This document shows, piece after piece, positions 9,251 through 63,145 of a stretch of DNA of 64,000 bases (the first letter of the stretch is position 1; every line of letters begins with the position of its first letter). The stretch lies in the NCBI RefSeq assembly GCF_023715505.1, contig NZ_JAMBOH010000011.1, positions 62,001 to 126,000 on the forward strand. Direction: 5' to 3'. The stretch is from Neobacillus cucumis. Lineage in GTDB: Bacteria > Bacillota > Bacilli > Bacillales_B > DSM-18226. Under the pieces are notes generated by a model, which searched no databases, was not told the DNA's origin, and saw only the letters and a list, made by a program, of their open reading frames with translations. Position numbers and translations under genes: made by a program.

Positions 9251-9252
9251 AG

Positions 9253-28815: not shown

Positions 28816-28848
28816 ATATGGGATCATCATAGGGTTTTCCAATAACAA

Positions 28849-28883: not shown

Positions 28884-28912
28884 ATTTTTTTAGAAAAGTA
28901 CTTTTAAACCAT

Positions 28913-30343: not shown

Positions 30344-30409
30344 ATCTTTCACTCTCCCCTATGTAAAGTAAAATCATAAACAGCATCTCCATAAAAGGAA
30401 CATCAAATT

Positions 30410-45987: not shown

Positions 45988-46950
45988 TCAAGATCTTTCA
46001 AGCAGTTCAATTATTACTTTATATGTAGCGGTGGTATCCATATAAGCGTATCTTCCTTTGCCATTCCAGAAATTTCCCTTTTGAATAATTGGATAGCCCA
46101 TATTCTCCAATACCCTCACTTTTTCGTCCATATCATTTACCAAAAATGAAATATGGTGGACCCCTTCTCCTTGTGTTTCCAGGTGCTTTTTCCACGTACT
46201 TGGTGAATCCCCTGGCTCGATTAATTCAAGTTGAAGTAAAGGGGTATTAATAAACATATATTTTGACTCACCCTCAGTTGGTTTTCCTTCAAAAACAACC
46301 TGAGTCACTTCACTTGGATCGGACTGAATAACAGGAGGTTTTTCTACACCTAATAACTTACAGTACTCTTCTGCAGCAGCATCAAGATCTTTTACGACAA
46401 TAGCAAACTGCTCTATTTTATTCGTTCCTAATAACGGGGTGAAGACATCAGTTCTAGGAGCGGTATCTCTGGGTTCAGCACTTTCTAAGAGCTCCATTAG
46501 AATCTTATGACTCTTTAAGGTATCGACATATACATATCTTCCATCACTGGAAGTAAATTCTCCGCTTTGGAGTAATGGATAACCATTTTCCTCAAAAACA
46601 GGAAGTTTATCTTTTATGGAATCCACGTCAAAGGCGAAATGATGAATCCCTTCACCTACTGTATCCAAAAATTCACTTATTGTCCCAGGTTCTTGATCTG
46701 GTTCAATCAGTTCAATTTGCACTGTAGGTGTATTCATGAATACGAGCTTACTGCGGGAATCACTTGGCTGGCCGCGAAAAGTGACTTTCGAAACTCCACG
46801 ATCACCAGTTAAAAACCAATTTGGTTTCGGTATACCCAGAAGTTGAGCAAATGCTTCTGATGCCTGCTCAATATCCCGAACAACAAATGCAATTTGATTA
46901 ATGACGTTATTCCCAGCCAACGGCTTTTTATCAGTTAATGAGTGGGCCAT
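45988..46950 (-). CDS. Tandem VOC (glyoxalase-fold) protein
   Basis: 320 aa made of two homologous VOC modules (about 15-150 and 172-320), each with the epimerase-like order INQIAFVV / IELIEP / EGIHHFAFDV / ILMELL and IEQFAIVV / LELIEP / EGVHHISFLV / VIIELL. The first metal ligand, normally His, is Gln in both halves, whereas the second His and the Glu remain. It is the last gene of the aromatic cluster, 35 nt after the diol dehydrogenase. An epimerase or lyase for a downstream CoA ester or ring product is possible, but the reaction is unknown. Confidence 0.8.
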   Translation of the reverse strand: MAHSLTDKKPLAGNNVINQIAFVVRDIEQASEAFAQLLGIPKPNWFLTGDRGVSKVTFRGQPSDSRSKLVFMNTPTVQIELIEPDQEPGTISEFLDTVGEGIHHFAFDVDSIKDKLPVFEENGYPLLQSGEFTSSDGRYVYVDTLKSHKILMELLESAEPRDTAPRTDVFTPLLGTNKIEQFAIVVKDLDAAAEEYCKLLGVEKPPVIQSDPSEVTQVVFEGKPTEGESKYMFINTPLLQLELIEPGDSPSTWKKHLETQGEGVHHISFLVNDMDEKVRVLENMGYPIIQKGNFWNGKGRYAYMDTTATYKVIIELLERS

Positions 46951-46985
46951 TTAACAATCACCTCAATGTGTCTTTTAGATCGTAA

Positions 46986-47771
46986 TCAACCAAGCCCGCG
47001 AACAGCTAATCCTCCGTCGCTTGAGATTACCTCACCCGTAATAGCACGTGCCTGGTCCGAAGCAAGCAAGATATAGGCCCCTACATGGTCTTCTGATTTC
47101 ATCGCAATTTGCAGTGGATTCCGTTTTTTAATACTTTTCTCTTTCGTTTCATTATCAACTATCTTTACGAAGGGCTCGAGCGGCGGAATAACATGTAACG
47201 CAGTTAAAGTACCTCCTGGGGCCACCGCATTCACTCGAATTTCAGGTGCTAATTCAAACGCAAGCTGACGCATTAAACCAATTTGAGCATGTTTGCTCGC
47301 GGTGTACCAGACTCCGCCTCCATCTGGATAGAATCCTGCCCCAGAAACAGTTAAAATCATATTCCCGGATGTTTTCTTAAGCTCCGCAACCGAAGCTTTT
47401 GCCCCATTAAAATAGCCCTTCACATTGATATCCATCAGCAGGTCATAAGCAGCTGACATCGCTTCCGGTGTAACATGTTCAAACTTGGCAAATCCATCAA
47501 AAACACCTGCATTGGCAACAAAAACATCTAACTTTCCAAAGGATTCTACTGCAGTTTCAACTGCATGAACATGGTCTTCATATACCGTTACGTCACCTTC
47601 GATACATTGAACCTTTTCACCAAATTGCTGTTTCAATTCATGTAATCCTTCTGCCGACTTATCAAGGATCGTAACAGCTGCACCTTCTTTGATAAATGCT
47701 TCGGTGACAGCCCTTCCAATACCAGAGGCACCTCCGGTCAAATAAATAGACTTGCCGCTAAGCTGAGCCAT
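46986..47771 (-). CDS. cis-Dihydrodiol dehydrogenase (SDR family)
   Basis: 261-aa SDR that would oxidise the cis-dihydrodiol made by the ring-hydroxylating dioxygenase to a catechol, with NAD. TGGASGIG (12-19), NAG (87-89), Ser143 and YTASK (Tyr156, Lys160) are all present. It resembles BphB/NahB-type enzymes in its C-terminal VNAVAPGGTLT region. The start at 47771 follows AGGGGG; the frame continues upstream inside the beta-subunit gene, which ends at 47798. Immediately after the dioxygenase subunits, as in other aromatic operons. Confidence 0.87.
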   Translation of the reverse strand: MAQLSGKSIYLTGGASGIGRAVTEAFIKEGAAVTILDKSAEGLHELKQQFGEKVQCIEGDVTVYEDHVHAVETAVESFGKLDVFVANAGVFDGFAKFEHVTPEAMSAAYDLLMDINVKGYFNGAKASVAELKKTSGNMILTVSGAGFYPDGGGVWYTASKHAQIGLMRQLAFELAPEIRVNAVAPGGTLTALHVIPPLEPFVKIVDNETKEKSIKKRNPLQIAMKSEDHVGAYILLASDQARAITGEVISSDGGLAVRGLG

Positions 47772-47797
47772 CAAGTCTGCCCCCTTTTCTTCAGCCA

Positions 47798-48307
47798 TTA
47801 AACAAAAATAGCGAGATTTCTTGTATTTAATGTGGTTTGGTCTACAATGAAAACACGCTTCGACAGCTTCCATTCCCCAGCCACATACGTGAATTCATCC
47901 TGACGCTCCCCAGAAATTAAATCGTGATGGATATCTGTACTTCGGCTTCGATAAATCGTCAAATAACTGTTTACAACGGCTTTTTCATTCGGAATGTAGT
48001 CAAGAAGCCGGACATTATTGACGGATCTTCGTGTCCGTGAAGGAGGAATTTCCGCCCAGGCGTAATCTGTTTTCAAACGGTCTACGCGGATCTTCAATAA
48101 TTCAATATCATCATGAAATGCAAACATATCTAAGGAATAATCCGGACGTTCAATACCTTCCTTATTCACTCGAACCGGCATTTGATAGGTAATGTCAGGG
48201 TGCAGCAAGCTAAACCAGCCATCAAAATCAATATCATCGAGCAGCTTAGCTTCTACATACAACCATTGTTCAAATTCATAGGTCGCCAGCATTTTCTCTA
48301 AACTCAT
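47798..48307 (-). CDS. Ring-hydroxylating dioxygenase, beta subunit
   Basis: 169-aa small subunit with the SnoaL-like cone fold of Rieske dioxygenases. Family features are the N-terminal EFEQWLYVEAKLLDDIDFDGWFSLL, DITYQMPVR and the C-terminal KLSKRVFIVDQT. It is structural and supports the alpha trimer. It follows the alpha gene by 49 nt. Confidence 0.93.
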   Translation of the reverse strand: MSLEKMLATYEFEQWLYVEAKLLDDIDFDGWFSLLHPDITYQMPVRVNKEGIERPDYSLDMFAFHDDIELLKIRVDRLKTDYAWAEIPPSRTRRSVNNVRLLDYIPNEKAVVNSYLTIYRSRSTDIHHDLISGERQDEFTYVAGEWKLSKRVFIVDQTTLNTRNLAIFV

Positions 48308-48356
48308 CCCTACTCCTCCAATCTTTTTAATAGAATCTACCCTGTATAAGAAAATA

Positions 48357-49661
48357 TTAAGAAGTCATTAGATCGAGCCAGTAACGATAAAAGTTTCGTT
48401 GATTGGCCTCTGTGAATTTATCATCGAAAACAACACCCGGGCCAATAAAATCTTCCACAGGTTTCCGATGTAAGCCCATCGTATAGTTAAAGGTAAGCCC
48501 TTTCACTAAGGGCATGGTACCAGCGGCTGCAGCAGTAATATCCGTAAATACCTCGGTGTCATCCTGTTCAAAGATTCCTGAAGGACTGAACGTTAAAATA
48601 AACGACTCTCGAGAACGTCGTTTCCAATCATCTGAAGCGTTTTTCTCTACTAAAAACCAAGTAATGACCTCCATTTTATCCACATCAACCGGTCTCCAAA
48701 GGCGGACTGAGGTATTTGAGATCAACTGGCCTTTTACTTTCGTATGAGAAATTAAGAAAGATAGATTAGGAAAGATATTGCCAATCATATTTTTTAGATT
48801 AGATAATACGTCATACTGTTCTTCTGTTAAATTAGACTTATACTCGTCTTTAAGTTCTTCCGGAAAAGCAAAATCAGGATTCGGTGTTCCAAGATTTAGT
48901 CCATGCCCGTTTTTTGTATAGATTTGATAGCCTTTTTTCGAATAAGTCGCACTTGGGACCATTCCCAATTTAACAATGGAACCATGAGTAACCATGGTAT
49001 GATAGGAGTCACCTACAAAATTATCCGCACCAATTTTCCAGTTTGATTGGATAATAAATCTTTGCGGCGGCCCGATGACTTCCATTTCCGCCCGGCCTGC
49101 TAAGATATCAAGATACCATTTAAAGTCACCTAAAAAATCTACTAAAGGCTCAGCTTCTTCATTCCACGTACCAAACATAAGACCTTTGTAAGATTCGATT
49201 CTGATTTTATGGAGCCCTAACCCAGATTTATCGAACCCCTCTCCATAAAGATCCTTTTGAAGCGGTACCCCGATACAATCCCCGGTATTTTTAAAATTAA
49301 AGCCATGATACGGACATGTAAACGATGATTTATTTCCTGCATCTGCCCGGCACAGTTTCATGCCACGATGGGTACACATATTATAAAGACCGCGGATTTC
49401 ACCATCTGCACCTCTGGAAATAATGACGGAATAGCCTGCTAGGTCTCTTGTAATAAAATCATTTTTGTTGGGGATTTCTGAGTCATGGCCAATAAACAGC
49501 CAGGTTTTTAAAAATACTTTTTTGTGTTCGATGTCATAAACCTTTGGATCACCTAAAAGAAAAGCAGGAATTGCGCCACTTTCAGGCTGCACAGATTCTT
49601 TTAAATAGTCAATCATGTCTGTTTGCGACATTTCTTCAAGCTTGATGTTCGTTTTCATCAT
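48357..49661 (-). CDS. Ring-hydroxylating dioxygenase, alpha subunit (Rieske)
   Basis: 434-aa catalytic subunit that would insert O2 into an aromatic ring to give a cis-dihydrodiol. The Rieske cluster ligands are Cys96, His98, Cys116 and His119 (MCTHRG, CPYHG). The mononuclear iron motif is GDSYHTMVTH with Asp219, His222 and His227. Length is normal for this class (benzoate, biphenyl, naphthalene types); substrate cannot be read off. It needs a ferredoxin and reductase, which are not encoded nearby. First of alpha-beta-diol dehydrogenase. Confidence 0.94.
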   Translation of the reverse strand: MMKTNIKLEEMSQTDMIDYLKESVQPESGAIPAFLLGDPKVYDIEHKKVFLKTWLFIGHDSEIPNKNDFITRDLAGYSVIISRGADGEIRGLYNMCTHRGMKLCRADAGNKSSFTCPYHGFNFKNTGDCIGVPLQKDLYGEGFDKSGLGLHKIRIESYKGLMFGTWNEEAEPLVDFLGDFKWYLDILAGRAEMEVIGPPQRFIIQSNWKIGADNFVGDSYHTMVTHGSIVKLGMVPSATYSKKGYQIYTKNGHGLNLGTPNPDFAFPEELKDEYKSNLTEEQYDVLSNLKNMIGNIFPNLSFLISHTKVKGQLISNTSVRLWRPVDVDKMEVITWFLVEKNASDDWKRRSRESFILTFSPSGIFEQDDTEVFTDITAAAAGTMPLVKGLTFNYTMGLHRKPVEDFIGPGVVFDDKFTEANQRNFYRYWLDLMTS

Positions 49662-49789
49662 ATGCCTATTCCCCCTTACTATTTAATGTTGTTTCCTATT
49701 TACAGGAGAATATTGTCTAAAAAGATTGGGTTTCCCCTGTTTTCTTTACTAGAATACTAGAATGACTTTCCATATCTTCATTCTACCAT

Positions 49790-50575
49790 CTAACCCACCT
49801 TAACGACTGCATCTTTATTTTTCAATACAGACAATACACTTAAGGCTGCTAAGTAGCTTGTTTTAGGATTATTGGGCATCGGATCATTTTCTACTTGAAG
49901 AGATAATGCTCCGAAAGACCCTGCAGCCTCTATCAAGTGACTATTTTTTCTCACAGCTGGATCGGAAATTATTTTTACACCTGTCTTATCCGGTCCTAGC
50001 CCTGCCAAGGACAAAATAATCGATACATTTATATTTTTAGGGAATAATTCAATCGCTTCCTTTGCAGTTCCTTCGAACATCACTTGTTCTCTATCGGCAG
50101 GAGCGCCGGGCAGTGCCCGAGGTGGTTTCCTTGTAATAATGGAAACGGACTCAAGTTCACCAATAGATCTTGCCGCTTTCAATATATCCAGTCCACCAAT
50201 TGCCCCTGCCGGTAAATAAATTTTCGAGCGGGCTTCTTGGCATATTCTTTCTAGTTGCTGATAAAAATGGCTATCAGCTAGAGCACCTACACTGCTTACG
50301 ACTAAATCTTTTCCACTTTTTAAAATAGCAGCAGCGTAGTCTTTTACTACTTGAATATTCGCCGCCTCTATGACTAAATCAATCGCAGCAGATTCTATTA
50401 GTGATTGAATATCTAAATAGTTTTCTGTATCAAATTCCCTAGCAAGCTGTCCGGCACTTTGCTGGTTGCGGGTATAAAGGCCAACAATTTTTCCGTCTGG
50501 AAGAAGACCATCCATATTGATGCTTTGAAGAAGGAACTTTCCAATATTTCCTCCGCCAATCAACCCTATTCTCAT
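49790..50575 (-). CDS. Aspartate dehydrogenase-like oxidoreductase
   Basis: 261 aa with an N-terminal Rossmann motif IGLIGGGNIGKF and a C-terminal domain of the L-aspartate dehydrogenase (NadX-like) family: PAGAIGGLDILKAA and NVSIILSLAGLGPD. Aspartate dehydrogenase makes iminoaspartate or oxaloacetate. Its place inside the aromatic cluster is unusual; the enzyme may act on an amino or imino intermediate or on a 2-oxo acid from ring fission. It lies 15 nt after the aldehyde dehydrogenase gene, so it is cotranscribed. Confidence 0.83.
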   Translation of the reverse strand: MRIGLIGGGNIGKFLLQSINMDGLLPDGKIVGLYTRNQQSAGQLAREFDTENYLDIQSLIESAAIDLVIEAANIQVVKDYAAAILKSGKDLVVSSVGALADSHFYQQLERICQEARSKIYLPAGAIGGLDILKAARSIGELESVSIITRKPPRALPGAPADREQVMFEGTAKEAIELFPKNINVSIILSLAGLGPDKTGVKIISDPAVRKNSHLIEAAGSFGALSLQVENDPMPNNPKTSYLAALSVLSVLKNKDAVVKVG

Positions 50576-50590
50576 CAGGCATCCCCCTTT

Positions 50591-52036
50591 TTAGTTGGCC
50601 AGACCATATGAATCTGCGAAATACTCAAGCCCACAATGTCTCGTTTCACGGGACAGTCCGCTTTCTTTTAATCCAGGGAAATCAAGGTGAAGGTCCTGGA
50701 AAACCGTGTGGTTATTATGAAATACGGCTCCAGCTTCCAAGCGGTCAGCTAATTTCATCGCAAGTGTTTCATCCTCTGTCCAAACAGACGCCCGTAAACC
50801 AAATTCGCTATCATTTGCAAGTCTTACGGCTTCATCAATATTTGAAAACGGCAATACTGGGATAACCGGACCAAATTGTTCTGTACGTACAATCTCACTT
50901 GTTTGGTCTACTCCAGTAATGATGGTTGGCATGATAAAATAGCCTTGATCCCATGATTCAGGATCGAGTTGAATTCCTCCAGTCCATACAGTTGCCCCTG
51001 ATTCTGCTGCCCGTTTGATCAGACCGTTAACATAGTCATATTGGGATTTATTATTTAACGGACCCATTTCAACATCAGGCTGAATACCGTTTCCAACTCG
51101 AATTCGACTGAATTCCTTCTTTAATTTTTCAATGACTTCCTCATACCTCGATTCATGAACATAGATTCTTTTGATCGCTGAGCATACTTGCCCTGCCGCA
51201 CGAAGGATTCCAAAACGTAAGCGTTTGATCGCTTCTTCATCCAATTTGGCATCAGCCAGAACAATTGCCGCATCATTTCCGCCCAGTTCCATGTACAGTT
51301 TCTTTACCGTACCGGCAGCTCGGCGCATGATTTCTTTACCGGTTTCCGTACTGCCAACGAACGCAATCGTACGAACCCTTGGGTCAGAGCAAAGAGCATC
51401 ACCAATCACACCACCGGAACCTGTTACCACATTGATCACCCCATCCGGAAAATAGGAAGCTGCCACCTTTAAGAAAGTCATAATCGTTAATGGACAACTG
51501 GTCGCCGGCTTTACGACTACTGTGTTTCCTGCCAATACTGCGGGTATAACCCGCTTAAATGTAAGAATCAGTGGAGAATTCCAAGGAGAGATAATGGCTG
51601 CCACACCGCGCGGCCGCTTTCTGATTTGCACTTTTTGGCTGCCGGGTAAACTTTCAGGCTGCCACCATTCTAATAATTCTTCCGCCCCTTGTTTCATAAT
51701 ATCTACACACCTGAGTAAATCCTTCTTCGCCTCAACTAATACCTTACCATTCTCGCGGACTAGTAAAGTGACATTCTCTTCAACGATTGCTTTAATTTCC
51801 TCAGCTGCAAGCCTCATCCGGTTTGCCCTGTCATAAATATCACTTTGCGACCAGCCTTCATAAGCCTTAGCCGCAGTGAACACGGCTTGCTCTACTTCAC
51901 TTTTTGAACATAAGGCCACTTCACCAACAACTTCACTCGTATTAGCCGGGTTGGTTACAGCTGCTGTTTGTTCTGCTTGAATCCACTTCCCGCCGATCAG
52001 ATATTTGCCTGAAACAAATGGATACGTTGAAATCAC
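50591..52036 (-). CDS. Aldehyde dehydrogenase (NAD-dependent)
   Basis: 481-aa ALDH superfamily enzyme with all catalytic elements: Asn153 (SPWNSP), Glu250 (MELGGND) and nucleophile Cys285 (AGQVCSAIKR). It would oxidise an aldehyde such as a muconic semialdehyde or benzaldehyde made in the pathway; the substrate is inferred from the cluster. It follows the ThDP enzyme by 12 nt, which fits a pair in which decarboxylation gives an aldehyde that is then oxidised. Confidence 0.92.
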   Translation of the reverse strand: MISTYPFVSGKYLIGGKWIQAEQTAAVTNPANTSEVVGEVALCSKSEVEQAVFTAAKAYEGWSQSDIYDRANRMRLAAEEIKAIVEENVTLLVRENGKVLVEAKKDLLRCVDIMKQGAEELLEWWQPESLPGSQKVQIRKRPRGVAAIISPWNSPLILTFKRVIPAVLAGNTVVVKPATSCPLTIMTFLKVAASYFPDGVINVVTGSGGVIGDALCSDPRVRTIAFVGSTETGKEIMRRAAGTVKKLYMELGGNDAAIVLADAKLDEEAIKRLRFGILRAAGQVCSAIKRIYVHESRYEEVIEKLKKEFSRIRVGNGIQPDVEMGPLNNKSQYDYVNGLIKRAAESGATVWTGGIQLDPESWDQGYFIMPTIITGVDQTSEIVRTEQFGPVIPVLPFSNIDEAVRLANDSEFGLRASVWTEDETLAMKLADRLEAGAVFHNNHTVFQDLHLDFPGLKESGLSRETRHCGLEYFADSYGLAN

Positions 52037-52048
52037 TATCTTTCCTCC

Positions 52049-53740
52049 TTATAATTTTTTCGGTTTAAATGCATCTGCTGCTCCCGGAGGTCCTCCAAAT
52101 GGTTTCGCCATTGGGCCGACAGCCTCCATGTCTACAACAATCATCGTTGGCTTTTTGTTTTCTACAGCTTTCTCAAGCTCTGTAACAAACTCCGTTGGGG
52201 AACTAATTCGTGAGGCATCAAATCCCATCGACTTTGCCAATAACACAAAGTCAGGGCTTAATAAATCCACGGCTACCTGACGTCCGTAAGCTGCACTTTG
52301 AATATTTCGGAGCACACCATAACCTGCATCATCAAACAACACAACAATCAAAGGCAGTTTTTCCTGCGCTGCGGTTGCCATTTCACCGACATTGACCATG
52401 AAACCTCCATCTCCTGCCATTAGTACGACAGTTCGATCTTTATCACTCATTTGCGCACCAATGGCTGTTGGCAGTCCTTGACCAATCCCGCCGCCCGACG
52501 CATGTATCGAGGTTCTTGGTTCATATATCTCAAACAGGCGGCTGCCCCACACATTTGCTTGAACGGTTACATCACGGACCAAAATCGTATTGAGAGGTAA
52601 CACTTCTCTCATACCATCAAGGATTTGTTCATAGGGACCAAGTGTTGCTCGTAACTGAGCTCGCAGCTCTTCCCGTACAGACTGCACTTCATCCAGATAG
52701 GAAGGATCTGGAGTAATGGACTTATGGCATAATTCTTCGTTTAAAGCCTGTAAAATCTGTTTAGCATCCCCTACGAGTCCACAGGTAGCTTCATAGTTAC
52801 GATTAATCGCCAGCCAGTCGGCATCGATGGCTATATGTTCTTTTGGAACAGGAACTTTCCAATTCGATGTTTCATTCCCTCTGAATCGAACACCGATACT
52901 GATCAATAAGTCAGCGGTTTGCAGCAGGTTTTTCGTTAATTCAGACGCGGCAAAATGGCCGATGCATTGTGGATGATTTTCAGGTATACTTCCTTTTCCA
53001 GATTGGCTTGTAATCACAGCTGCCCCAATCATTTCAGCTAATGCCTCGACTTCTCTGGATGCGCCGGAGGAAATCACTCCTCCTCCTGCCCAAATCACCG
53101 GCCTACGGGCATGACAGATTTTAGTTATTGCCTCTTCAGGCAAGGATGGAATAGTTTTATTAGTTGGAGCTGTTGTTATGATTTCTTCAATCGGATGATT
53201 TGGGATAATAGCAGATTGGAAATCAATGGGGATTTCAAGTGTTACTGGTCCTGCTGGATAAGCAAACGCGTCTTGTATGGCTTGTCTCACGACTGCTGCA
53301 GCTTGCTCTGGTCTTCTTAAGCGGGCTGCTTTTTTACACGAACCTTCCATCATGGACAGCTGGTCTTTGCATTCATGGATATACCCTCTGCCAGTTCCTA
53401 AGTATGGAGAAGCAACCTCACCGGTAAGATGAAGAACAGGAACTCCTGCTGCCCATGCCTCAATTAAGGAGCCTGCTGCATTTCCTGCTCCTGTCCCAGT
53501 GCTAGTAATTACAACTCCTAATTTACCTGTTGCTCTGGCATATCCATCTGCCATATTGACCGCTCCGCTCTCCCCGCGGGAACAGACTAAATGAATACTT
53601 CCTTCACGAAGAATAGCATCATAAATCGGCATATTATGGATACTAACAATTCCAAATGCTACTTCCACTCCAGCACGAACAAGTTCTTTCACAACTGCAT
53701 CAGCAGTCGTAAATTCCTTTTGATTTTGTTCACTCATCAT
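52049..53740 (-). CDS. ThDP-dependent enzyme (acetolactate synthase/benzoylformate decarboxylase-like)
   Basis: 563 aa with the three domains of the POX family. The ThDP-activating Glu is Glu57 in SRGESGAVNMADGYAR. The diphosphate-binding motif is GDGGFMVNVGEMATA and ends in FDDAGYG where many relatives have NN. No FAD-type C-terminal tail; it ends in a Pro/Gly-rich segment (PFGGPPGAADAFKPKK). Likely a 2-oxo acid decarboxylase or C-C lyase/ligase. Paired with an aldehyde dehydrogenase, it could turn an aryl- or alkyl-2-oxo acid into an acid. Confidence 0.85.
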   Translation of the reverse strand: MMSEQNQKEFTTADAVVKELVRAGVEVAFGIVSIHNMPIYDAILREGSIHLVCSRGESGAVNMADGYARATGKLGVVITSTGTGAGNAAGSLIEAWAAGVPVLHLTGEVASPYLGTGRGYIHECKDQLSMMEGSCKKAARLRRPEQAAAVVRQAIQDAFAYPAGPVTLEIPIDFQSAIIPNHPIEEIITTAPTNKTIPSLPEEAITKICHARRPVIWAGGGVISSGASREVEALAEMIGAAVITSQSGKGSIPENHPQCIGHFAASELTKNLLQTADLLISIGVRFRGNETSNWKVPVPKEHIAIDADWLAINRNYEATCGLVGDAKQILQALNEELCHKSITPDPSYLDEVQSVREELRAQLRATLGPYEQILDGMREVLPLNTILVRDVTVQANVWGSRLFEIYEPRTSIHASGGGIGQGLPTAIGAQMSDKDRTVVLMAGDGGFMVNVGEMATAAQEKLPLIVVLFDDAGYGVLRNIQSAAYGRQVAVDLLSPDFVLLAKSMGFDASRISSPTEFVTELEKAVENKKPTMIVVDMEAVGPMAKPFGGPPGAADAFKPKKL

Positions 53741-53762
53741 TCATTCCTGCCTTCTTCTAAAA

Positions 53763-54554
53763 TTAAAGCGCTTTCCCTAACGCTCCAGCTGTTTCTATGG
53801 TTGATCCCGATACATAGCTTGCTTGGCTTGAGGCTAAAAACAAAATAACACTGGCTACTTCTTCTGCTTCCCCTACTCTGCCTAATGGGATATTTCTCTT
53901 TTTAGCTAAATCTGCATAATAATCTTCTGCTTTCATGTCGGGGGCATTTTTTAACCTGCGCCGCTCCCATTGATCCGTTCGAATCAAACCTAAGCTTACA
54001 GAGTTGACTAAAATATTCTCTGACGCAAGCTCTTGTGACAGCGTCTTACTTAAATTCAATAATCCCGCTCTTGTAGCAGCTGTAGCAATCATATGCCTTT
54101 CCGGCTCTTTTGCTAATGTGGCATTAATATTAATGATTCTGCCACCGCCCCGCTTGATAAAATAAGGATGAACCGCCTTGACTGCATAAATAATGGCAAA
54201 GTATTTTAACTTAATCTGCTGTTCCCATTGTTCGTCCGTTACATCAAAGAAGTAGCCCATCACACTTTGTCCGGCAGCATTCACAAGGATATCTATCCCG
54301 CCAAAGTTAGCAGCTGCTCCGTTTATAAAAGTGTTCACATCGTCCTTACTCGTTACGTCACATGTCGCTGCAAAAATGGAATCTACTGTTCCAAATTTCA
54401 GCAAATGATCGTATGCTTTTTCTTTTCTTTCCGGATCTCTTCCACAAACTGCTACTCTGGCACCTTCCAGAAGAAACATCTCAGCTGTTTTTAACCCAAC
54501 GCCAGATGTGCCGCCCATAATAACAGCTACCTTATCTTTTAATCCTAAATCCAT
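53763..54554 (-). CDS. SDR-family oxidoreductase with altered active site
   Basis: 263 aa with a normal Rossmann start (GGTSGVG, 14-20) and NAAG, but the catalytic YxxxK is replaced: around the expected place the sequence reads HMIATAATRAGLLNL, with Thr for Tyr and Arg for Lys. A known divergent branch of SDRs has this ARAGL form. It may use a different catalytic residue or may bind without classical reduction. ATG 54554 follows GGGGTGG and is preferred to 54572. It lies between the extradiol dioxygenase and ThDP genes. Confidence 0.82.
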   Translation of the reverse strand: MDLGLKDKVAVIMGGTSGVGLKTAEMFLLEGARVAVCGRDPERKEKAYDHLLKFGTVDSIFAATCDVTSKDDVNTFINGAAANFGGIDILVNAAGQSVMGYFFDVTDEQWEQQIKLKYFAIIYAVKAVHPYFIKRGGGRIININATLAKEPERHMIATAATRAGLLNLSKTLSQELASENILVNSVSLGLIRTDQWERRRLKNAPDMKAEDYYADLAKKRNIPLGRVGEAEEVASVILFLASSQASYVSGSTIETAGALGKAL

Positions 54555-54579
54555 GGTACCACCCCTTTTCATCCAGACG

Positions 54580-55494
54580 CTAAACCAATTCTATTACATC
54601 CACCCAACCCGGATCTGGCTTTCCAGCCATCGCTGCCCGTGTTTCCGGTTTTGGAGGTCCAGCAATTCCCCATTGGTCCATTAGATGCGGAACCCGTTTC
54701 CAGACACGCGCTCTCCATTCTGACTCATCTTCAATCGTTTCTAGATAACAGGTATACTCCATCACAAACTTCCCTGGATCTTGAAAGTAACAAAAAACAT
54801 TATTTCCAGGACCATGGCGTCCCGGGCCCCAAATCTCTTGATAACCTGCTTTTCTTACATTACTAATTCCCCTCATAACCTCATCCACTGTATCCACTTC
54901 ATACGCGATATGATTAACAGAGGCGTGTTGATCCTGATTGAAGGCAATGGAGTGGTGTTTCCTGTTACAGCGAAGGAAGGACATTTGGTGCTCACTCCAG
55001 TCGGTCACCTTAAACCCTAAGACATTCGTATAGAAATCAGTAATCATATCAAGGTCTTTCGTATTCATCACGACATGGTTAAGTTTGACCGGATCCACAT
55101 TTTTCTTTTGCCAAATAGTGGTATGCATTTCCACCCAGGCGGATAATTCGATACAGCGATTTTCAGGATCGACAAAACGCAAACCATAACCCTTACCCTC
55201 TTCCTCTAGATACCCGGGAGGTGAAACAATCTTCACGCCCTTTGAAGCAAGAATTTCGGCTGCCAGGTCGACGGCATTTTTATCCACCATTCCAAATGCA
55301 ATATGGTGCAATCCACTTTTTTCACCGACATGTAGGCTTAGGATATGATTTTCTGGACCTGCCCCCCGAAAGTAAACTGATTGATCATCCTGCGAAACTT
55401 TATCTAAGCCCCAAATTTTTTCATAAAAATCAGCTTGTTCTTTTAGCACTGGGGTAATTAAGCTAATATGCCGTAAATGTGTAATTCCTAACAT
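54580..55494 (-). CDS. Extradiol ring-cleavage dioxygenase (type I, VOC fold)
   Basis: 304-aa two-domain catechol 2,3-dioxygenase-type enzyme that opens a catechol ring next to the hydroxyls. Iron ligands His140, His195 and Glu246 are visible in LNHVVMN, VNHIAYEV and FVMEYT; the second-shell His181 lies in KHHSIAF. The first domain (1-120) is the non-catalytic repeat. A longer C-terminal tail (about 250-304) with MDQWG is like that of 2,3-dihydroxy-aryl enzymes. It starts at ATG 55494 behind a purine-rich GGTGGCGAG. Confidence 0.92.
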   Translation of the reverse strand: MLGITHLRHISLITPVLKEQADFYEKIWGLDKVSQDDQSVYFRGAGPENHILSLHVGEKSGLHHIAFGMVDKNAVDLAAEILASKGVKIVSPPGYLEEEGKGYGLRFVDPENRCIELSAWVEMHTTIWQKKNVDPVKLNHVVMNTKDLDMITDFYTNVLGFKVTDWSEHQMSFLRCNRKHHSIAFNQDQHASVNHIAYEVDTVDEVMRGISNVRKAGYQEIWGPGRHGPGNNVFCYFQDPGKFVMEYTCYLETIEDESEWRARVWKRVPHLMDQWGIAGPPKPETRAAMAGKPDPGWVDVIELV

Positions 55495-55635
55495 CTCGCC
55501 ACCTCCACTTTTAATAAACTTTTAAATTCAGGCAGGGATGATCCCGTATTGAAGTAGGAGGACCATCCCTGTCAATGAACACTTTTTCAGGAATCAGGGA
55601 GTATGCTTAGTTGAAACATCTGCCTAATTTTAAAA

Positions 55636-56172
55636 TTAGTTTCCTTTAATAATGGCTTCTCTTTCTTTTGCCCGCTGGATACGAAGTTCTTCTAAAGCAC
55701 TGCCTTTTGGATAGGTTGGTAAATTCGGTTTCACTGCTCCTAACATAACCAGCATCAAAGCCTCTTCGTCACCATCGTTTCGAATACCACGATATACTCC
55801 TGGTGGGGAGCTAATACAATCTCTCTCATTTAGGACGATTTCATGGATTTCGTTTTCTCCCTCTTCCTGGATAAGCGCTGTCACACTTCCTTTGATAACA
55901 AAGAAAACTTCTTCCACATCGTCGTGTAAATGAAGCGGTCCCTCACATCCCGCTGGTAAAACCATCGTGCTTAATGTAAAGTGTTCAGCCGCAATGACAT
56001 TGGAATCGTTATTAGCTGTTGCACCACGTCCAATGTATCTCATTTGCGCTCTACGATAAGCCGGGTTTATTTCTTCCTGAAACTTCAACACATTCCAATC
56101 AAGAGAGCGATCCTTTAACCTCGCAACATATTTGTTCTCAAACGCTTCTAATGAAAATTTTTCCTGGGACAT
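55636..56172 (-). CDS. Cupin-domain protein
   Basis: 178-aa single-cupin protein. The metal motif is GPLHLHDDVEEVFFVIKG with His81, His83 and Glu88, and the second motif is around SSPPGVYRGIRN (no clear second His). It may be a small dioxygenase, isomerase or a binding protein for a pathway intermediate; function not known. It has its own IclR-type operator directly upstream (56189-56208), so it and the genes after it can be induced as one unit. Confidence 0.8.
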   Translation of the reverse strand: MSQEKFSLEAFENKYVARLKDRSLDWNVLKFQEEINPAYRRAQMRYIGRGATANNDSNVIAAEHFTLSTMVLPAGCEGPLHLHDDVEEVFFVIKGSVTALIQEEGENEIHEIVLNERDCISSPPGVYRGIRNDGDEEALMLVMLGAVKPNLPTYPKGSALEELRIQRAKEREAIIKGN

Positions 56173-56188
56173 TCATAACACTCCTTTA

Positions 56189-56208
56189 ATGTTTTATATA
56201 TAAAACAT
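56189..56208. promoter_or_regulatory. IclR-type palindrome A, before the cupin gene
   Basis: ATGTTTTATATATAAAACAT, a perfect 20-bp palindrome, 17 nt before the cupin start. It belongs to a five-copy set near the IclR gene. Confidence 0.7.
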
Positions 56209-56292
56209 TGTTTTGTTTATAAACCAATAATAAATCCCAATATTATAATTGTCAATTAAAAATATTGAGAAAATTCATTTATTTACAACTGT

Positions 56293-56308
56293 GTTTTGTA
56301 TACAAAAC
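56293..56308. promoter_or_regulatory. IclR-type palindrome B, upstream of the cupin gene
   Basis: GTTTTGTATACAAAAC, a perfect 16-bp palindrome, about 100 bp from palindrome A and in the gap between the MFS gene and the cupin gene. Confidence 0.7.
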
Positions 56309-56331
56309 CAATACCCGTATTTATATGGTTG

Positions 56332-57609
56332 TTAGACAGTTACATGATTAGGCGGCAAATTCTCCATTTTAAGCTCCGATGCTTCTTTTTTCAATGTAAA
56401 CAGATAAGCAGCGAAACCTAGCGCAGCAGCAATAATTAGCATAACGATAGAAGGTCCAAAGTCCCCGCCAGAAACATCAACCATCCATCCCATAATATAG
56501 CTTGAAAAACCGCCAAGGATATTGGTGAATCCCATCAACCCAGCAGCACGTCCCGCTGTTTCAGGAGTAGAGAATTTGACGATAAATAAATTACTGATAT
56601 GGAAAACACCGCCTTGCGATCCCATCGCTAAGCCCATGCAAACCCCGGCCATTACTGGCTGTGGAGATAATATGGCAGCAGTTAAGAATGAAGCAGTTAA
56701 AAGAAATAATATAGTCGCTATTAAACCAGGGCGCTTCGTTTTATCCGCTAAAAATCCGCAAATTAATACAAAACCTAAAGCAAATAGCCAAGATAAAGAG
56801 GTGATTCCAGTCATTGCCTCTCTTGTAAAGCCCTTTGCTCCGACTAAATAAGTCGGGAGCCAAATGCTAATACCAAAAAACAAGAACGACGAAACTAACA
56901 TTCCAAACCAAACAATCCAATAACGGAAGTCTTGAGTAAAGTTTAGTTTTTTAGTAGATTCTTTAGAATCTGATTGCCGAATATAGGCTAATTCATTTTT
57001 ATCCAATCCTGGATGTTCTTCAGGGGTATCACGAGTAAGGAATATAAACATTGGAAGTACAATTAAAATATTAAACGCAGCTAAAGCGAAAAAGGCAGCC
57101 TGCCAATGGAAGGTAGCAATAACAAGCGTTAATATAACAGCTCCACATGCAGGTCCTAAATAGTTTCCTGCAAGCCAAGAAGATTGCGCCCGGCCAAGTT
57201 CACGCTGATGAAACCAGTTTGAAATGAACTTACCGCAAATGGGAATCATCATACCTTCACCCATCCCAAGAACAATTCGGCTAACAATAAACATTTCATA
57301 AGAGGTGGATAACCCGCCAACAACCATGGTCAGTGCCCATACGGAAAGACCTAAAATACCTGTCTTTCTAGCTCCAAGTTTGTCAATGATAAATCCCCAA
57401 AAGATATTAGACAATGCATAGGAAATGGTAAATACAAAGGTAATCATTCCAATCTTGGCATTCCTATCTGCTCCTGTTAATCCAAGATCACTTAAGAAGC
57501 CTTGATCGGTTTGAATAATAGAAATACCTAATTTATCAATTTGTCCAAAAAACCAAAAGAAGAATATAGGCATCGCAATATAGATCCATCGTTTGTTACC
57601 TTTCAGCAT
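56332..57609 (-). CDS. MFS transporter, anion:cation symporter-like
   Basis: 425 aa with twelve hydrophobic helices. The pattern around helix 1-4 (FFWFFGQIDKLGISI, FGFIIDKLGARK-like, RIVLGMGEGMMIP) fits the anion:cation symporter subfamily that carries aromatic acids, galactonate or phthalate. It probably imports the aromatic substrate of the cluster. A cre-like site (57630) and two IclR-type palindromes lie upstream. Confidence 0.86.
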   Translation of the reverse strand: MLKGNKRWIYIAMPIFFFWFFGQIDKLGISIIQTDQGFLSDLGLTGADRNAKIGMITFVFTISYALSNIFWGFIIDKLGARKTGILGLSVWALTMVVGGLSTSYEMFIVSRIVLGMGEGMMIPICGKFISNWFHQRELGRAQSSWLAGNYLGPACGAVILTLVIATFHWQAAFFALAAFNILIVLPMFIFLTRDTPEEHPGLDKNELAYIRQSDSKESTKKLNFTQDFRYWIVWFGMLVSSFLFFGISIWLPTYLVGAKGFTREAMTGITSLSWLFALGFVLICGFLADKTKRPGLIATILFLLTASFLTAAILSPQPVMAGVCMGLAMGSQGGVFHISNLFIVKFSTPETAGRAAGLMGFTNILGGFSSYIMGWMVDVSGGDFGPSIVMLIIAAALGFAAYLFTLKKEASELKMENLPPNHVTV

Positions 57610-57629
57610 GAAAGAGCCCCCTTTTTAAA

Positions 57630-57643
57630 TGAATACGCTTCCA
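57630..57643. promoter_or_regulatory. cre-like site before the MFS gene
   Basis: TGAATACGCTTCCA matches the cre consensus at 13 of 14 positions, 21 nt before the MFS start, so catabolite repression is possible. Confidence 0.45.
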
Positions 57644-57725
57644 AATTATTATTCATAGTATACTATAATTCAAAGGCTATAACTGACTTTAACTCCTCCT
57701 TTTTTGATTATTTGCAGCAGCCTTA

Positions 57726-57745
57726 GTGTTTTATATATAAAACAC
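57726..57745. promoter_or_regulatory. IclR-type palindrome C, before the MFS gene
   Basis: GTGTTTTATATATAAAACAC, a perfect 20-bp palindrome, about 115 nt upstream of the MFS start and just after the IclR gene. Confidence 0.7.
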
Positions 57746-57827
57746 CGTTTACTACTAAGTCTATTTTAAAATTTTAAGAAAATTGTGTCAACATAAAATA
57801 TAAGTTTTGTTTTATTATTTAAAATTC

Positions 57828-57843
57828 GTTTTATATACAAAAC
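57828..57843. promoter_or_regulatory. IclR-type palindrome D, after the IclR gene
   Basis: GTTTTATATACAAAAC, one mismatch from a perfect palindrome. Centre 100 bp from palindrome C, the same spacing as between A and B. Confidence 0.65.
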
Positions 57844-57883
57844 ACATAACGCGTAATAAAAAGCTTGCATCTAGCTGCAAGCT

Positions 57884-58675
57884 TTAATTCATTTTAGTAT
57901 GATAGCCCATAAAACCGGATAATATTTTAGAAACTTCAAGCACTTTTGGTAAAGCTACTTTTTCAATAAATTCACTATTAAACGTTTTTTCTGTTGCGAC
58001 AATGTTAAGGGCTGCCATTACGTTACCGGTACGCTCGAATACAGGAGCTGCAACCGATTGAATTCCATGGTGAAACTCTCCCTTTGTAATCGCATATCCC
58101 TTTTGCCGAATTGCATCCAATTCCTGCTGAAATTCCATGTAATCTGTTTGCGTTCTTTCCGTATATGGTTTTAAATTAGAGCCAAACAAGATTTGATTTA
58201 ATTGGTCCTGAGGTTGATAGGCAAGCTGTACTTTCCCATTTGCAATGGCATGCGCAGGCAGCCTTAGCCCAATATTCACATTTACCGCCGAAACACCTCT
58301 AACAGGCGCACTGCCAACATAAACGACTTCATGGCCATCCAATATCGATAAATGGCAGGAAGCCCCTGTTTCATCTCTTAATTTTTCTAAGTATGGCTGC
58401 GCAATTTCTGGGAGTTTCAATGTGCTTAAATACGCAAATCCTAATTCCAAAACCTTTGGAGTTAAACTATAGCGTTTCGTATGTTCATCCTGATGGAGGT
58501 ATCCCAAAGTTTGGAGTGTATACAATAATCGAAATGGAACTGTCCGGCTCACATCTAGTTCTTTCGCGATTTCTACCAACGATAATGTTGGACGCTCCTC
58601 ACTGAATAGCTTTAATATCTCCAATCCTCTTACTAAAGCATTGGCATTATAACGTTCCTTTTCATCTTTTACCAT
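57884..58675 (-). CDS. IclR-family regulator
   Basis: 263 aa with an N-terminal winged helix (about 10-72; LSLVEIAKELDVSRTVPFRLLYTLQTLGYL) and a C-terminal IclR effector domain (about 80-258; GASCHLSILDGHEVVYVG, GLRLPAHAIANGKVQLA). Regulators of this group control aromatic catabolic genes. It lies between the hydrolase and transporter genes. Its likely sites are the five GTTTT…AAAAC palindromes at 56.2-59.6 kb; palindrome D follows its own stop codon. Confidence 0.9.
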   Translation of the reverse strand: MVKDEKERYNANALVRGLEILKLFSEERPTLSLVEIAKELDVSRTVPFRLLYTLQTLGYLHQDEHTKRYSLTPKVLELGFAYLSTLKLPEIAQPYLEKLRDETGASCHLSILDGHEVVYVGSAPVRGVSAVNVNIGLRLPAHAIANGKVQLAYQPQDQLNQILFGSNLKPYTERTQTDYMEFQQELDAIRQKGYAITKGEFHHGIQSVAAPVFERTGNVMAALNIVATEKTFNSEFIEKVALPKVLEVSKILSGFMGYHTKMN

Positions 58676-58731
58676 AACTATTTCACCATCTCATTATCTT
58701 TAATTTACTTATTCTACTATTTTCATGAAGT

Positions 58732-59562
58732 TTAATCAAAGAGGGCATTACAGTGTGCATCCTTACCCTTGTCTAAAGAGGTTAGAAAGTCTAGGACAAT
58801 TGAATTAAATTGATTGGGATCCTCTTGATAACACAAATGACCTGTCAACGGGATCGTAACAAATGTTGAATTTTTAATGGCATCATGGAAAATCTGTGAT
58901 TCAGATACCGGCGTGACTTTATCTAATTCTCCACAAATGACAAGGGTAGGTACAGAAATGCGAGGCAGGATCTCCATTTGATTCAAATGAAAAAGTGAAT
59001 AGGCTACTGATCGGAAGCCCATCGGTCTTATTTGCGAATAGATTCTTTCTGCCTCTTTCTTTACATCAGGCGCCGGCTGCGGAGAAAGAAGCTCCGTTAC
59101 ACGCAGGGCAGCCAGTTCTTTTGGCTCTAATGTTTCAATGTTGGTTAATCGATTGTTTAATTTCTGTTCATTCGCTTCCTTGCTCAAGGCGGCTGCCCCT
59201 CTTGTCGCATCAGAAATGATTAAGGCATCTACCATGTGCGGAAAGCGATAACAAAAATCAAGTGCTATGGCCGAACCCATAGAATGACCCAGAATTGTAA
59301 CAGATTCATATTGTAAGTTATCAATAAATCCTTTTAATACATCTGCAAATTGCTTGAATTCCTTTAACTCTACTGTTGGATCAGAACTTTTCCCATACCC
59401 AGGCGCATCCCAAGCTATAACCGTGTAATGCTCAGATAAGCCCTTTAATTGTTTTTTCCATGATTGAGAGTTGTTCCCCATTCCATGTAAAATAATTAAT
59501 GGAGCTCCCTCGCCCTCGATTTTATAATGAATCTTTAAATCCTCTACTTGTAAATAAGGCAT
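58732..59562 (-). CDS. Alpha/beta hydrolase (meta-cleavage product hydrolase type)
   Basis: 276-aa hydrolase with nucleophile Ser94 (GHSMGSA), acid Asp214 (CGELDKVTP) and His242 (LTGHLCYQ). It resembles carbon-carbon hydrolases that split 2-hydroxy-6-oxo-dienoate ring-fission products (MhpC, BphD, XylF), which fits a partner to the extradiol dioxygenase. ATG 59562 follows GGAGG and is chosen over 59583. It is the first gene of the cluster, and palindrome E lies 22 nt upstream. Confidence 0.87.
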   Translation of the reverse strand: MPYLQVEDLKIHYKIEGEGAPLIILHGMGNNSQSWKKQLKGLSEHYTVIAWDAPGYGKSSDPTVELKEFKQFADVLKGFIDNLQYESVTILGHSMGSAIALDFCYRFPHMVDALIISDATRGAAALSKEANEQKLNNRLTNIETLEPKELAALRVTELLSPQPAPDVKKEAERIYSQIRPMGFRSVAYSLFHLNQMEILPRISVPTLVICGELDKVTPVSESQIFHDAIKNSTFVTIPLTGHLCYQEDPNQFNSIVLDFLTSLDKGKDAHCNALFD

Positions 59563-59583
59563 ATACTCCCTCCATACAACCAT

Positions 59584-61678: not shown

Positions 61679-63145
61679 TTAATATGGAGATTTTGCACCA
61701 AGGTATCTAGTTTTCCAATATGATGATGTCATATCGGAAATGGTTACACCCGTCGATGCAGCACTGATGAATTTGTTGTTTCCTAAATAAATTCCAACAT
61801 GGGACGGTCCCACTTTATAGGTTTCAAAAAAGACTAGGTCACCTACACGTGGCGAACTGACTGGTGTTGCAGCATCCCATTGTGTTGCTGCTGTTCGTGG
61901 TAAGGAGATCCCAACTTTATTGAATACATAAACTGTAAAGCCACTGCAATCGAATCCTGCTGGAGTATTTCCTGCCCATTTATATGGTGAACCGATATAT
62001 TTCTTAGCCTCAGCGATAACTCCTTCAACAACTGAAGTAGATGCAGTCGCTGGTTTTTGGGCTGCTTCAGTAGAAGTTGCTGGCTTTTGATCTGCTGCTG
62101 AATTAGTCGTTGTTGTTGATTCTGATGTTGTTGGTGCTTTTTCGGTTGTTGCTGTTGATCCGGATGTTGCCGGTGCTGCCGGTGCTGCTGGTGCTGCTGG
62201 TGCTGCCGGTGCTGCCGGTGCCTCCGGTGTTGCCGGTGTTGCCGGTGTTGCTGCTGCTGCTGGTGTTGCTGGTGTTGCCGGTGTTGCTGCTGCTGCTGAT
62301 GTCGCCGGTGCCGCTGGTGCTGCCGGTGCTGCCGGTGTCGCCGGTGTTGCCGGTGTTGCCGGTGTTGCTGGTGTTGCTGGTGTCGCCGGTGCTGCCGGTG
62401 TCGCCGGTGCTGCCGGTGTCGCCGGTGCTGCCGGTGCTGCTGGTGCCTTTTCCGGTGTCACTGTTGTTCCAGATGTTACTGGCGCTTCTTCAGTTGCTGC
62501 CGTATTTGAAGTGGTTGCAGTGCTTCCCGTGGAAGCTGTATTTGAAGATACCGAAGGACTCTTTGTTTCCACACTTGAAGCTGCCGCAGTACTTCCAGCT
62601 GTAACTGAATCTGACTTAGCCACAGTGCTAGTATTAGCCCCATTACTACTCACATTTAACGTCTGCCCAGCATAAATAGTGTCAGAGGTTAATTGATTCA
62701 TTGATTTAAGCTGAGGAACCGTTACATTAAAACGCGCTCCTATCACTGAAAGCGAATCACCTTTTTGTACGGTATAAGTAGAATCACTTACACTCGTTTC
62801 TGCCACCTTCAATTGCTGCCCAGCACGAAGGAAACTTGATGTCATGCCATTCAAGCGTTTTAGTTCACTTACGGTCGTACCATTATCTCTTGCAATCGCC
62901 CAAAGAGTATCACCTTTTTTTACCGTATAAGTAAGTGATAGTTTTTGATTGACATAGATTGTATCACTTGATAGAGCATTCCACTCTTTTATTTGATTTA
63001 TAGTCACATGATTTGATTGAGAAATTTTCCAAAGGCTGTCTCCTGGCTGAACTGTATAAGCAGGTTCCTGTGCACTTGCTGTAGCTCCAAAAGCAGTAAG
63101 TACGAGCCCGGCAGTTGCAGCGGCTGTTACTAAATTTTTCTTCAC
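61679..63145 (-). CDS. LysM-NlpC/P60 peptidoglycan endopeptidase
   Basis: 488-aa secreted cell wall hydrolase. A signal peptide (1-25, ending TASA), three LysM repeats (about 29-72, 74-115, 123-166), a Ser/Thr then Pro/Ala/Thr linker (about 170-385), and a C-terminal NlpC/P60 domain. Catalytic Cys400 (FDCSGF) and His449 (SHVGIY) are present. It would cut the D-Glu-meso-DAP stem bond, like LytE/LytF/CwlS. The start is GTG 63145 with GGTAGG about 11 nt upstream. Monocistronic with its own terminator. Confidence 0.94.
62155..62460 (-). repeat. In-gene GC-rich minisatellite encoding the PAA/PAT linker
   Basis: About 300 bp of 9-bp units (on the plus strand GGTGCTGCC, GGTGTTGCC and close variants) encode repeats of Pro-Ala-Ala and Pro-Ala-Thr. 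The unit is a multiple of 3, so gain or loss of copies changes linker length and keeps the frame. Confidence 0.9.

Follow-up and report, generated by a model that had tools for sequence, protein, structure and literature searches.

A cluster of thirteen genes in a stretch of 64,000 nucleotides of the Neobacillus cucumis genome (contig NZ_JAMBOH010000011.1, positions 62,001 to 126,000; hereafter the window) is, judging from its sequence, probably a degradation operon for kynurenate and related quinoline-2-carboxylate. It is likely the gene set of the classical kynurenate (quinoline) pathway, continued by a lower end that is proposed here. More tentatively, its genes cup, hyd and aspdh may open a dihydroxypicolinate with oxygen and recover the nitrogen as L-aspartate together with 2-oxoglutarate, an undescribed route, and would thereby, with the upper genes, supply the missing genes of kynurenate catabolism (and of xanthurenate catabolism, by way of a flavin adenine dinucleotide (FAD)-dependent hydroxylase) in Bacillota, Proteobacteria and Actinomycetota. 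A preliminary description of this DNA had recognized a catabolic cluster starting by ring dioxygenation, which our analysis supports, but could name no pathway for it and suspected an undescribed route. The kynurenate pathway nevertheless fits step by step and, with its proposed new lower end, is the better reading.

The thirteen open reading frames (ORFs) are all located on the minus strand:

58732..59583, minus strand: hyd, alpha/beta hydrolase (Ser101-Asp221-His249), proposed to hydrolyze an enamide after pyridine ring opening
57884..58675, minus strand: iclR, IclR-family regulator, PcaR/PobR-like (238 bits, under the cut-off of 284.75)
56332..57609, minus strand: mfs, major facilitator superfamily (MFS) transporter, proposed to take up the substrate
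55636..56172, minus strand: cup, single-domain Cupin_2 protein (HxHxxxEE kept, His of motif 2 replaced by Arg), proposed ring-opening dioxygenase
54580..55494, minus strand: ext, type I extradiol dioxygenase with two extradiol-type vicinal oxygen chelate (VOC) domains (H140, H195, E246), proposed 7,8-dihydroxykynurenate 8,8a-dioxygenase
53763..54572, minus strand: sdr1, short-chain dehydrogenase/reductase (SDR) of NCBIfam PRK07062 (292 bits, cut-off 266) with Thr164/Arg168, proposed side-chain ene-reductase
52049..53740, minus strand: thdp, thiamine diphosphate (ThDP)-dependent enzyme of NCBIfam PRK07064 (644 bits, cut-off 495), proposed 2-oxo acid decarboxylase
50591..52036, minus strand: aldh, aldehyde dehydrogenase (ALDH), proposed to oxidize 5-(2-formylethyl)-4,6-dihydroxypicolinate
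49790..50575, minus strand: aspdh, aspartate dehydrogenase (AspDH), TIGR03855, proposed iminosuccinate reductase giving L-aspartate
48357..49661, minus strand: alpha subunit of a Rieske ring-hydroxylating dioxygenase; closest solved relative, the Rhodococcus-type naphthalene dioxygenase 2b1x
47798..48307, minus strand: beta subunit of the Rieske dioxygenase (family scan)
46986..47873, minus strand: sdr2, cis-dihydrodiol dehydrogenase (HcaB/BphB-like) with YxxxK intact (family scan and residues)
45988..46950, minus strand: voc2, double Glyoxalase_4 protein, accessory (family scan; in 47 of 67 relatives)

The ORF listing of the window and the Pfam and NCBIfam scans of all 13 proteins agree with the order and family names given previously. 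The span, placed earlier at 45988..59562, is real but reaches 59583, position 59562 being an in-frame ATG inside the hyd ORF. The run from ext through sdr1, thdp and aldh to aspdh is separated by gaps of 7–22 bases, and longer gaps lie between iclR and mfs (274 bases), mfs and cup (159), cup and ext (141), and aspdh and alpha (128). Since the listed sdr2 ORF overlaps that of beta, the true start of sdr2 is probably near 47771. Both cluster ends are well defined by their neighbors: genes for a LysM/GH18 protein, a chromate transporter and an EcsC protein below, and for a PspA-family and an lmo0954-family membrane protein above. The G+C content in 2-kb steps (0.36–0.45) stays inside the range of the whole window.

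The gene content constrains the substrate in several ways. A Rieske dioxygenase acting together with diol dehydrogenase and extradiol cleavage enzymes points to an unsubstituted carbocyclic ring. A 2-oxo acid decarboxylase followed by an ALDH implies a 2-oxo acid side chain on a second ring and, thus, a bicyclic substrate. Moreover, the presence of an AspDH implies a nitrogen next to a carboxylated carbon that ends as iminosuccinate or aspartate. Kynurenate (4-hydroxyquinoline-2-carboxylate) combines the three features. Its breakdown in Pseudomonas is said to have been studied in extracts by Horibata et al. in 1961 and by Taniuchi and Hayaishi in 1963 (J Biol Chem 238:283); it reportedly starts with dioxygenation and diol oxidation, goes on to extradiol cleavage, and continues by reduction, decarboxylation and oxidation of an aldehyde.

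In the scheme proposed here, steps one to six follow this extract biochemistry and steps seven to nine are put forward here; the substrate, every reaction and the direction of flow are deduced from protein family, residues, gene order and chemistry. The alpha and beta subunits would set a cis-7,8-diol on kynurenate, and sdr2 would re-aromatize it to 7,8-dihydroxykynurenate, which ext would cut between C8 and C8a to yield a 4,6-dihydroxypicolinate bearing a 3-carboxy-3-oxopropenyl side chain. The double bond of this side chain would be reduced by sdr1, the resulting 2-oxo acid decarboxylated by thdp, and the aldehyde taken by aldh to 5-(2-carboxyethyl)-4,6-dihydroxypicolinate. Subsequently, cup would open the pyridine ring by inserting oxygen into the C4–C5 bond of the 1,3-dicarbonyl system, hyd would split the N-(2-oxoglutaryl) enamide into 2-oxoglutarate and aminofumarate (equivalent to iminosuccinate), and aspdh would reduce the latter to L-aspartate. 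The ten carbons would thus be distributed as one CO2, five in 2-oxoglutarate and four in aspartate. The MFS protein would import the substrate and the IclR protein would regulate the cluster; every enzyme except voc2 would be employed.

The catalytic residues previously noted for dioxygenation, diol oxidation, ring cleavage and the hydrolase are conserved in alignments of the relatives (68/69 to 79/79 rows), in which weak rows were retained and positions were assigned by motif. The Rieske residues C96, H98, C116 and H119 of alpha are present in 68 of 69 rows, the remaining row being a gap, and the iron site H221, H226 and D368 in all 69; the C-x-H...C-x2-H motif, the 2-His-1-Asp site and the beta subunit of a two-subunit Rieske oxygenase are accordingly all present. 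A Rieske-type dioxygenase and a cis-dihydrodiol dehydrogenase thus occur together, whatever their substrate. Conservation is also complete for the extradiol ligands H140, H195 and E246 (79 rows), Y190 and K194 of sdr2 (75), the hyd triad S101, D221 and H249 (66) and His213 of aspdh (76), and Cys285 of aldh and Glu57 of thdp are found in 84/86 and 89/91 rows, the last with two gaps. Besides carrying its catalytic His, aspdh exceeds the curated cut-off of TIGR03855 (229.3 bits against 206.55) and those of NF009829 and NF009828 (PRK13303 subfamilies), its best NCBIfam match, NF009830, scoring 254.1 under a cut-off of 267.

Among solved proteins, alpha matches the naphthalene dioxygenase 2b1x best (371 bits), followed by phthalate 3,4-dioxygenase 9jp5 (301), against 228 bits for cinnamate dioxygenase 8k0a, which argues for a bicyclic substrate, since 2b1x acts on a bicyclic ring. 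This similarity could also suggest a route for a naphthalene-like polycyclic hydrocarbon. However, such a route is very improbable, as the 13 genes hold no hydratase-aldolase or salicylate step and it would leave the AspDH and the cupin unexplained.

A feature beyond the preliminary description is found in sdr1 (53763-54572), which lacks the Tyr-x-x-x-Lys pair and carries Thr164 and Arg168 at the classical SDR positions. In its relatives from Bacillales, Proteobacteria and Streptomyces, Tyr is absent in 81 of 83 rows and Arg replaces Lys in the same proportion (81/83); the two rows with Tyr and Lys are L064 (33% identical; loci retrieved here are numbered L) and, presumably, L089 (25%). Among solved proteins, sdr1 is nearest to 3lf1 ('Short Chain Oxidoreductase Q9HYA2'), a Pseudomonas aeruginosa protein. 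The loss of the Tyr/Lys pair fits C=C rather than alcohol chemistry: sdr1 probably does not work as an ordinary alcohol dehydrogenase, and it may plausibly reduce an enone double bond. As for cup, two His and the Glu are invariant in 75/75 rows and the fourth His is replaced by Arg in 72/75, leaving the 3-His/1-Glu site incomplete, and its profile matches the quercetinase QueD best among solved proteins, albeit weakly (E 2.8e-5). Given this weak match and the missing fourth metal ligand, an oxygenase role of cup is put forward as a proposal.

The cluster is widespread in Bacillales. The nearest thdp relatives belong to Neobacillus and its allies, with 97% identity in Bacillus sp. ISL-18 and N. 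vireti. A scan of a collection with one genome per species returned 77 Bacillales loci, taken with 10-kb flanks that were sometimes cut by contig ends, in which gene presence was scored with identity thresholds of our choice and a cluster was defined as at least eight of the 13 genes. The cluster is conserved beyond chance, since 67 of these 77 loci keep at least eight genes and 33 keep all 13, in genera that include Neobacillus, Cytobacillus, Peribacillus, Priestia, Siminovitchia, Brevibacillus, Ammoniphilus, Scopulibacillus and Shimazuella. Among the 67 clusters, alpha and the contiguous sdr1, thdp and aldh are each present in 67, ext and beta in 66, iclR, mfs and sdr2 in 65, aspdh in 64, cup in 63, hyd in 54 and voc2 in 47. 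In the genus to which the nearest relative belongs, 18 of 61 genomes carry ext (E up to 1e-100, with one partial match), and of 299 genomes drawn from the class, 8 do (E up to 1e-60); that relative is part of both samples. With these figures, the earlier remark that two-subunit Rieske dioxygenases are uncommon in Bacillaceae is not supported. Ten loci fall under the threshold, one being a contig-end copy with seven genes (L049) and the other nine ThDP relatives elsewhere. Bacillus sp. OV166 carries two copies, one with 12 of the 13 genes (L008) and one with 11, without ext or voc2 matches and with an aspartase gene adjacent (L022).

Support for the last three steps comes from the linkage of their genes. 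The fetched Brevibacillus loci L045, L048 and L052 contain no cup, hyd or aspdh; in the three Brevibacillus genomes tested, however, these genes form a block in the order cup-hyd-aspdh followed by iclR, located on the same strand as the rest, beyond a hydrolase gene and ATP-binding cassette (ABC) transporter genes, and some 14.5 kb away from ext where both coordinates are available (two genomes). Rather than a separate locus, the block is the distal part of the cluster itself. The nine-step scheme had been written before the block was looked up, and the block supports it because cup, hyd and aspdh are its last three steps. The extra hydrolase gene, with the first IclR gene on one side and the ABC transporter genes on the other (L123 7781-8632, L124 1348-2166, L125 1161-2093), has YghX as the best NCBIfam name of its L045 copy, under the cut-off. 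Moreover, aspdh, hyd and cup are contiguous in Streptomyces (L082), and cup adjoins hyd in all eight loci outside Bacillales that have the short cupin.

Those loci outside Bacillales, 13 in number (L078–L090), were retrieved from a plasmid collection in which some records are of chromosome size. Ten of them, from Paracoccus, Vibrio, Pseudosulfitobacter, Caballeronia (two), Streptomyces, Acinetobacter, Klebsiella, Novosphingobium and Nitratireductor, match all of hyd, a cupin, ext, sdr1, thdp, aldh and aspdh, eight of these ten matching iclR and seven sdr2 as well; the ext matches of L081, L085, L086 and L087 are weak (24–27% identity). The three exceptions are a Caballeronia locus cut by the record end (L090), a partial set, also from Caballeronia (L084), and a Variovorax locus of another context (L089). 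A one-subunit Rieske protein of about 340–355 residues is found in nine of the ten by motif scan (in L083 from annotation), and several loci contain ferredoxin and reductase genes. By annotation, L078, L080 and L088 have a flavodoxin-domain gene after the core and a gene for an FAD-dependent oxidoreductase, which suggests a flavodoxin-based electron supply to the one-subunit enzyme. A short 'recombinase-like helix-turn-helix' protein, also annotated, regularly lies near the gene for the one-subunit Rieske protein or near the associated transporter genes (L078, L080, L081, L084–L088 and L090; Pfam HTH_62 confirmed for L081). The cupin has many relatives, 3268 proteins at E up to 1e-10, the best 120 of which include proteins named from Kluyvera, Enterobacter, Raoultella, Serratia, Providencia and Halomonas.

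Some of these loci suggest other points of entry into the pathway. The Vibrio locus (L079) contains, in its 18.9 kb, no ORF of at least 60 codons with a Rieske motif and no sdr2 match; the same motif scan was positive in ten of the other 12 loci (L083 is cut there and L089 is not a cluster). Behind its IclR gene lies an FAD-dependent aromatic hydroxylase gene, split into two ORFs in the record, one piece of which shares 60% identity across 212 residues with the core-adjacent hydroxylase of Nitratireductor (L088), itself 64% identical to that of Caballeronia L090. Since a hydroxylase alone yields the same catechol only from a substrate that is already hydroxylated, xanthurenate (8-hydroxykynurenate) would be the obvious candidate substrate of the Vibrio core, a pattern that agrees with the kynurenate scheme. 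In Caballeronia L084, a molybdenum-hydroxylase gene set stands beside Rieske, ThDP and VOC genes. Quinaldate 4-oxidoreductases convert quinaldate into kynurenate, and the L084 enzyme could, by analogy, do the same. This set and a Rid-family gene beside the Rieske gene of L090 (best model E 5e-12, below the cut-off) are hints of an N-heteroaromatic substrate.

The molybdenum hydroxylase beside the partial cluster would also suit a route of the same logic for another N-heteroaromatic compound with other products, such as a hydroxyquinoline, quinaldate alone or, by analogy with lumichrome breakdown, a quinoxaline. The lumichrome route, in the available part of its description, likewise has a molybdenum hydroxylase, a two-subunit Rieske enzyme, an extradiol dioxygenase and ThDP enzymes (PMC12746152). 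However, the cytochrome P450, several hydrolases, paired ThDP subunits and pyrone intermediate given there are unmatched here, and the word 'aspartate' is absent from the main text of that paper (PMC12746152). The AspDH, with an aspartase in two relatives, and the trio for reduction, decarboxylation and oxidation suit a 2-carboxylated N-ring fused to a carbocycle, and a substrate of this other kind appears rather unlikely.

The genes around the Bacillales clusters, assigned to families of which one or two members each were scanned, include several that would use the predicted products and that support the kynurenate scheme. Aspartate ammonia-lyase is found inside the cluster of L059 and beside L022 (two of 67, both over NCBIfam cut-offs), a malic-enzyme family in seven of 67 loci, being a few genes away in L022 and L026 (as two short ORFs in the latter), and the alpha subunit of a 2-oxoacid:ferredoxin oxidoreductase in six. 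Furthermore, an NMT1-type ABC transporter family lies near the cluster in 12 relatives (one representative scanned), and a gene family with a 4Fe-4S ferredoxin member (L043) lies beside it in five loci. A link to the kynurenine pathway of the cell itself was considered and rejected: in the seven genomes tested, kynureninase and tryptophan dioxygenase exceed their cut-offs in four each, and no linkage to the cluster appeared. Uptake of the substrate from outside is therefore more likely.

Several observations weigh against kynurenate as the substrate or against parts of the scheme. On the same contig, no kynurenine gene lies nearer than about 45 kb (in the genome of L043 it is on another contig), and the nearest relative of the window has neither kynureninase nor tryptophan dioxygenase over the cut-off. 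No ferredoxin or reductase gene is found within the Bacillus cluster, and an HcaD-like reductase exceeds its cut-off in none of four genomes; short Rieske ORFs occur in two of the four, lying in the nearest relative beside HcaD-like matches in ORFs of 812–820 residues, and probably encode subunits of nitrite reductase. Genes able to use the products occur in a minority of clusters, and voc2 has no place in the scheme. The cupin lacks its usual fourth His, storage proteins and oxalate oxidase rank close behind its weak match to QueD, and L078, L080 and L088 carry a different cupin of 314–315 residues with two matched stretches, the short one not being found there. The locus alignment gives no sdr2 match in L087. 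The three Brevibacillus are related species, so that their block does not represent three independent events, and it lies on the same strand as the rest. Finally, ThDP relatives are found in other contexts in L084 and L089 and in nine Bacillales loci (L063, L064, L067, L068, L069, L071, L072, L074 and L077). In L069, L071, L072 and L074, a diverged ThDP gene (52–58% identical) and an ALDH gene occur without ring-oxidation genes and adjoin members of a gene family represented in L071 by a Glu/Leu/Phe/Val dehydrogenase, L072 and L074 additionally having an aspartase/fumarase-family gene (Pfam on L072); they possibly represent a different 2-oxo acid pathway sharing the ThDP–ALDH module.

A further difficulty is the hydrolase, whose best solved match is the meta-cleavage compound hydrolase 1j1i and which lies directly before ext in four proteobacterial loci (L078, L079, L080 and L088), an arrangement that would suit a meta-cleavage hydrolase too. 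The C–C hydrolysis assumed in the preliminary description would accordingly assign the cluster to the meta-cleavage breakdown of some monocyclic or biaryl compound (of phenylpropanoid, biphenyl or alkylbenzene type), in which hyd splits the ring-cleavage product, and the best NCBIfam names of alpha (HcaE), beta (PRK10069/HcaF) and sdr2 (PRK06200/HcaB) agree with it. These Hca-type names, however, all miss their cut-offs (253 against 830 for alpha, 136.6 against 145 for beta and 321 against 330 for sdr2), and no 2-hydroxypentadienoate hydratase, aldolase or acylating acetaldehyde dehydrogenase is present in the 13 genes or among the neighbor-family representatives scanned, which do not cover every neighbor. 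Moreover, the ThDP enzyme, ALDH, AspDH and cupin would stand idle, and hyd is grouped with cup and aspdh in Brevibacillus and Streptomyces. The position before ext would favor C–C hydrolysis and the Brevibacillus grouping speaks against it, a meta-cleavage pathway being unlikely.

Other parts of the window were judged by eye. About 15.6 kb from the cluster, an asparaginase-like ORF (27245-28327) is followed by an aspartate ammonia-lyase-like ORF (28913-30352); the pair (27245-30352) looks like an ordinary ans operon and would consume the aspartate product. Positions 1698-10814 of the minus strand hold a hexuronate-type catabolic set comprising a sugar kinase, an aldolase, an altronate-type dehydratase and reductase, a LacI-type regulator, a transporter and a uronate isomerase-like protein. 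At 61679-63145, a secreted LysM protein has a long Ala/Pro/Thr repeat region, opposite which the other strand has an open frame of 164 codons (62110-62604) that is probably an artefact of composition.

Both kynurenate and xanthurenate derive from tryptophan and act on host receptors, and the chemistry of their degradation by bacteria has been on record since the 1960s. To our knowledge, kynurenate 7,8-hydroxylase, 7,8-dihydrodiol dehydrogenase and 7,8-dihydroxykynurenate 8,8a-dioxygenase are orphan activities. No gene assignment for kynurenate catabolism appears among the matches listed (titles and beginnings of abstracts) in the open-access literature, outside which subscription journals mostly lie, so that one may exist. 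If the proposal is true, the three activities gain genes, one gene signature lets genomes and metagenomes be screened for kynurenate removal, and scattered names such as acetolactate synthase, betaine-aldehyde dehydrogenase and aspartate dehydrogenase become one testable pathway.

Among known systems, the 3-phenylpropionate/cinnamate (Hca) system has in common with the cluster a two-subunit Rieske enzyme and a BphB-type diol dehydrogenase, but the cluster stays under all curated cut-offs (for the HcaE, HcaF and HcaB equivalogs, 253 against 830 for alpha, 102.8 against 230 for beta and 281 against 450 for sdr2), has no ferredoxin or reductase gene and continues with other downstream enzymes. 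The closest solved alpha subunits, 2b1x and 9jp5, act on bicyclic or carboxylated substrates, their substrates and pathways differing from those of the cluster. The lum cluster, as far as the available part of its description goes, resembles it in directing Rieske, extradiol and ThDP decarboxylase enzymes to an N-heteroaromatic and differs in its P450, further hydrolases, paired ThDP subunits and products (PMC12746152). In Acinetobacter baumannii, A1S_0945, 0946, 0954 and 0956–0958 are listed under separate headings as ferredoxin, hydrolase, AspDH, ALDH and acetolactate-synthase-like genes (PMC5757984, PMC3758355); in the table excerpts available, A1S_0954, 0956, 0957 and 0958 have values of 2.2 to 3.7, which we read as fold change with mucin (PMC5757984), and A1S_0945, 0946 and 0956 are among the genes expressed only in biofilm cells (PMC3758355). 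From their names and order, these genes appear to belong to the same cluster type, for which the portions of the expression studies at hand propose no pathway (PMC5757984, PMC3758355). The related Acinetobacter locus (L083) has, by annotation, a one-subunit Rieske protein, unlike the two subunits of the Neobacillus cluster. The closest correspondence is with the kynurenate pathway of Pseudomonas, whose reported order of reaction types matches the gene content of the cluster, and to which the terminal route through the cupin, the hydrolase and the AspDH is added here as a proposal.

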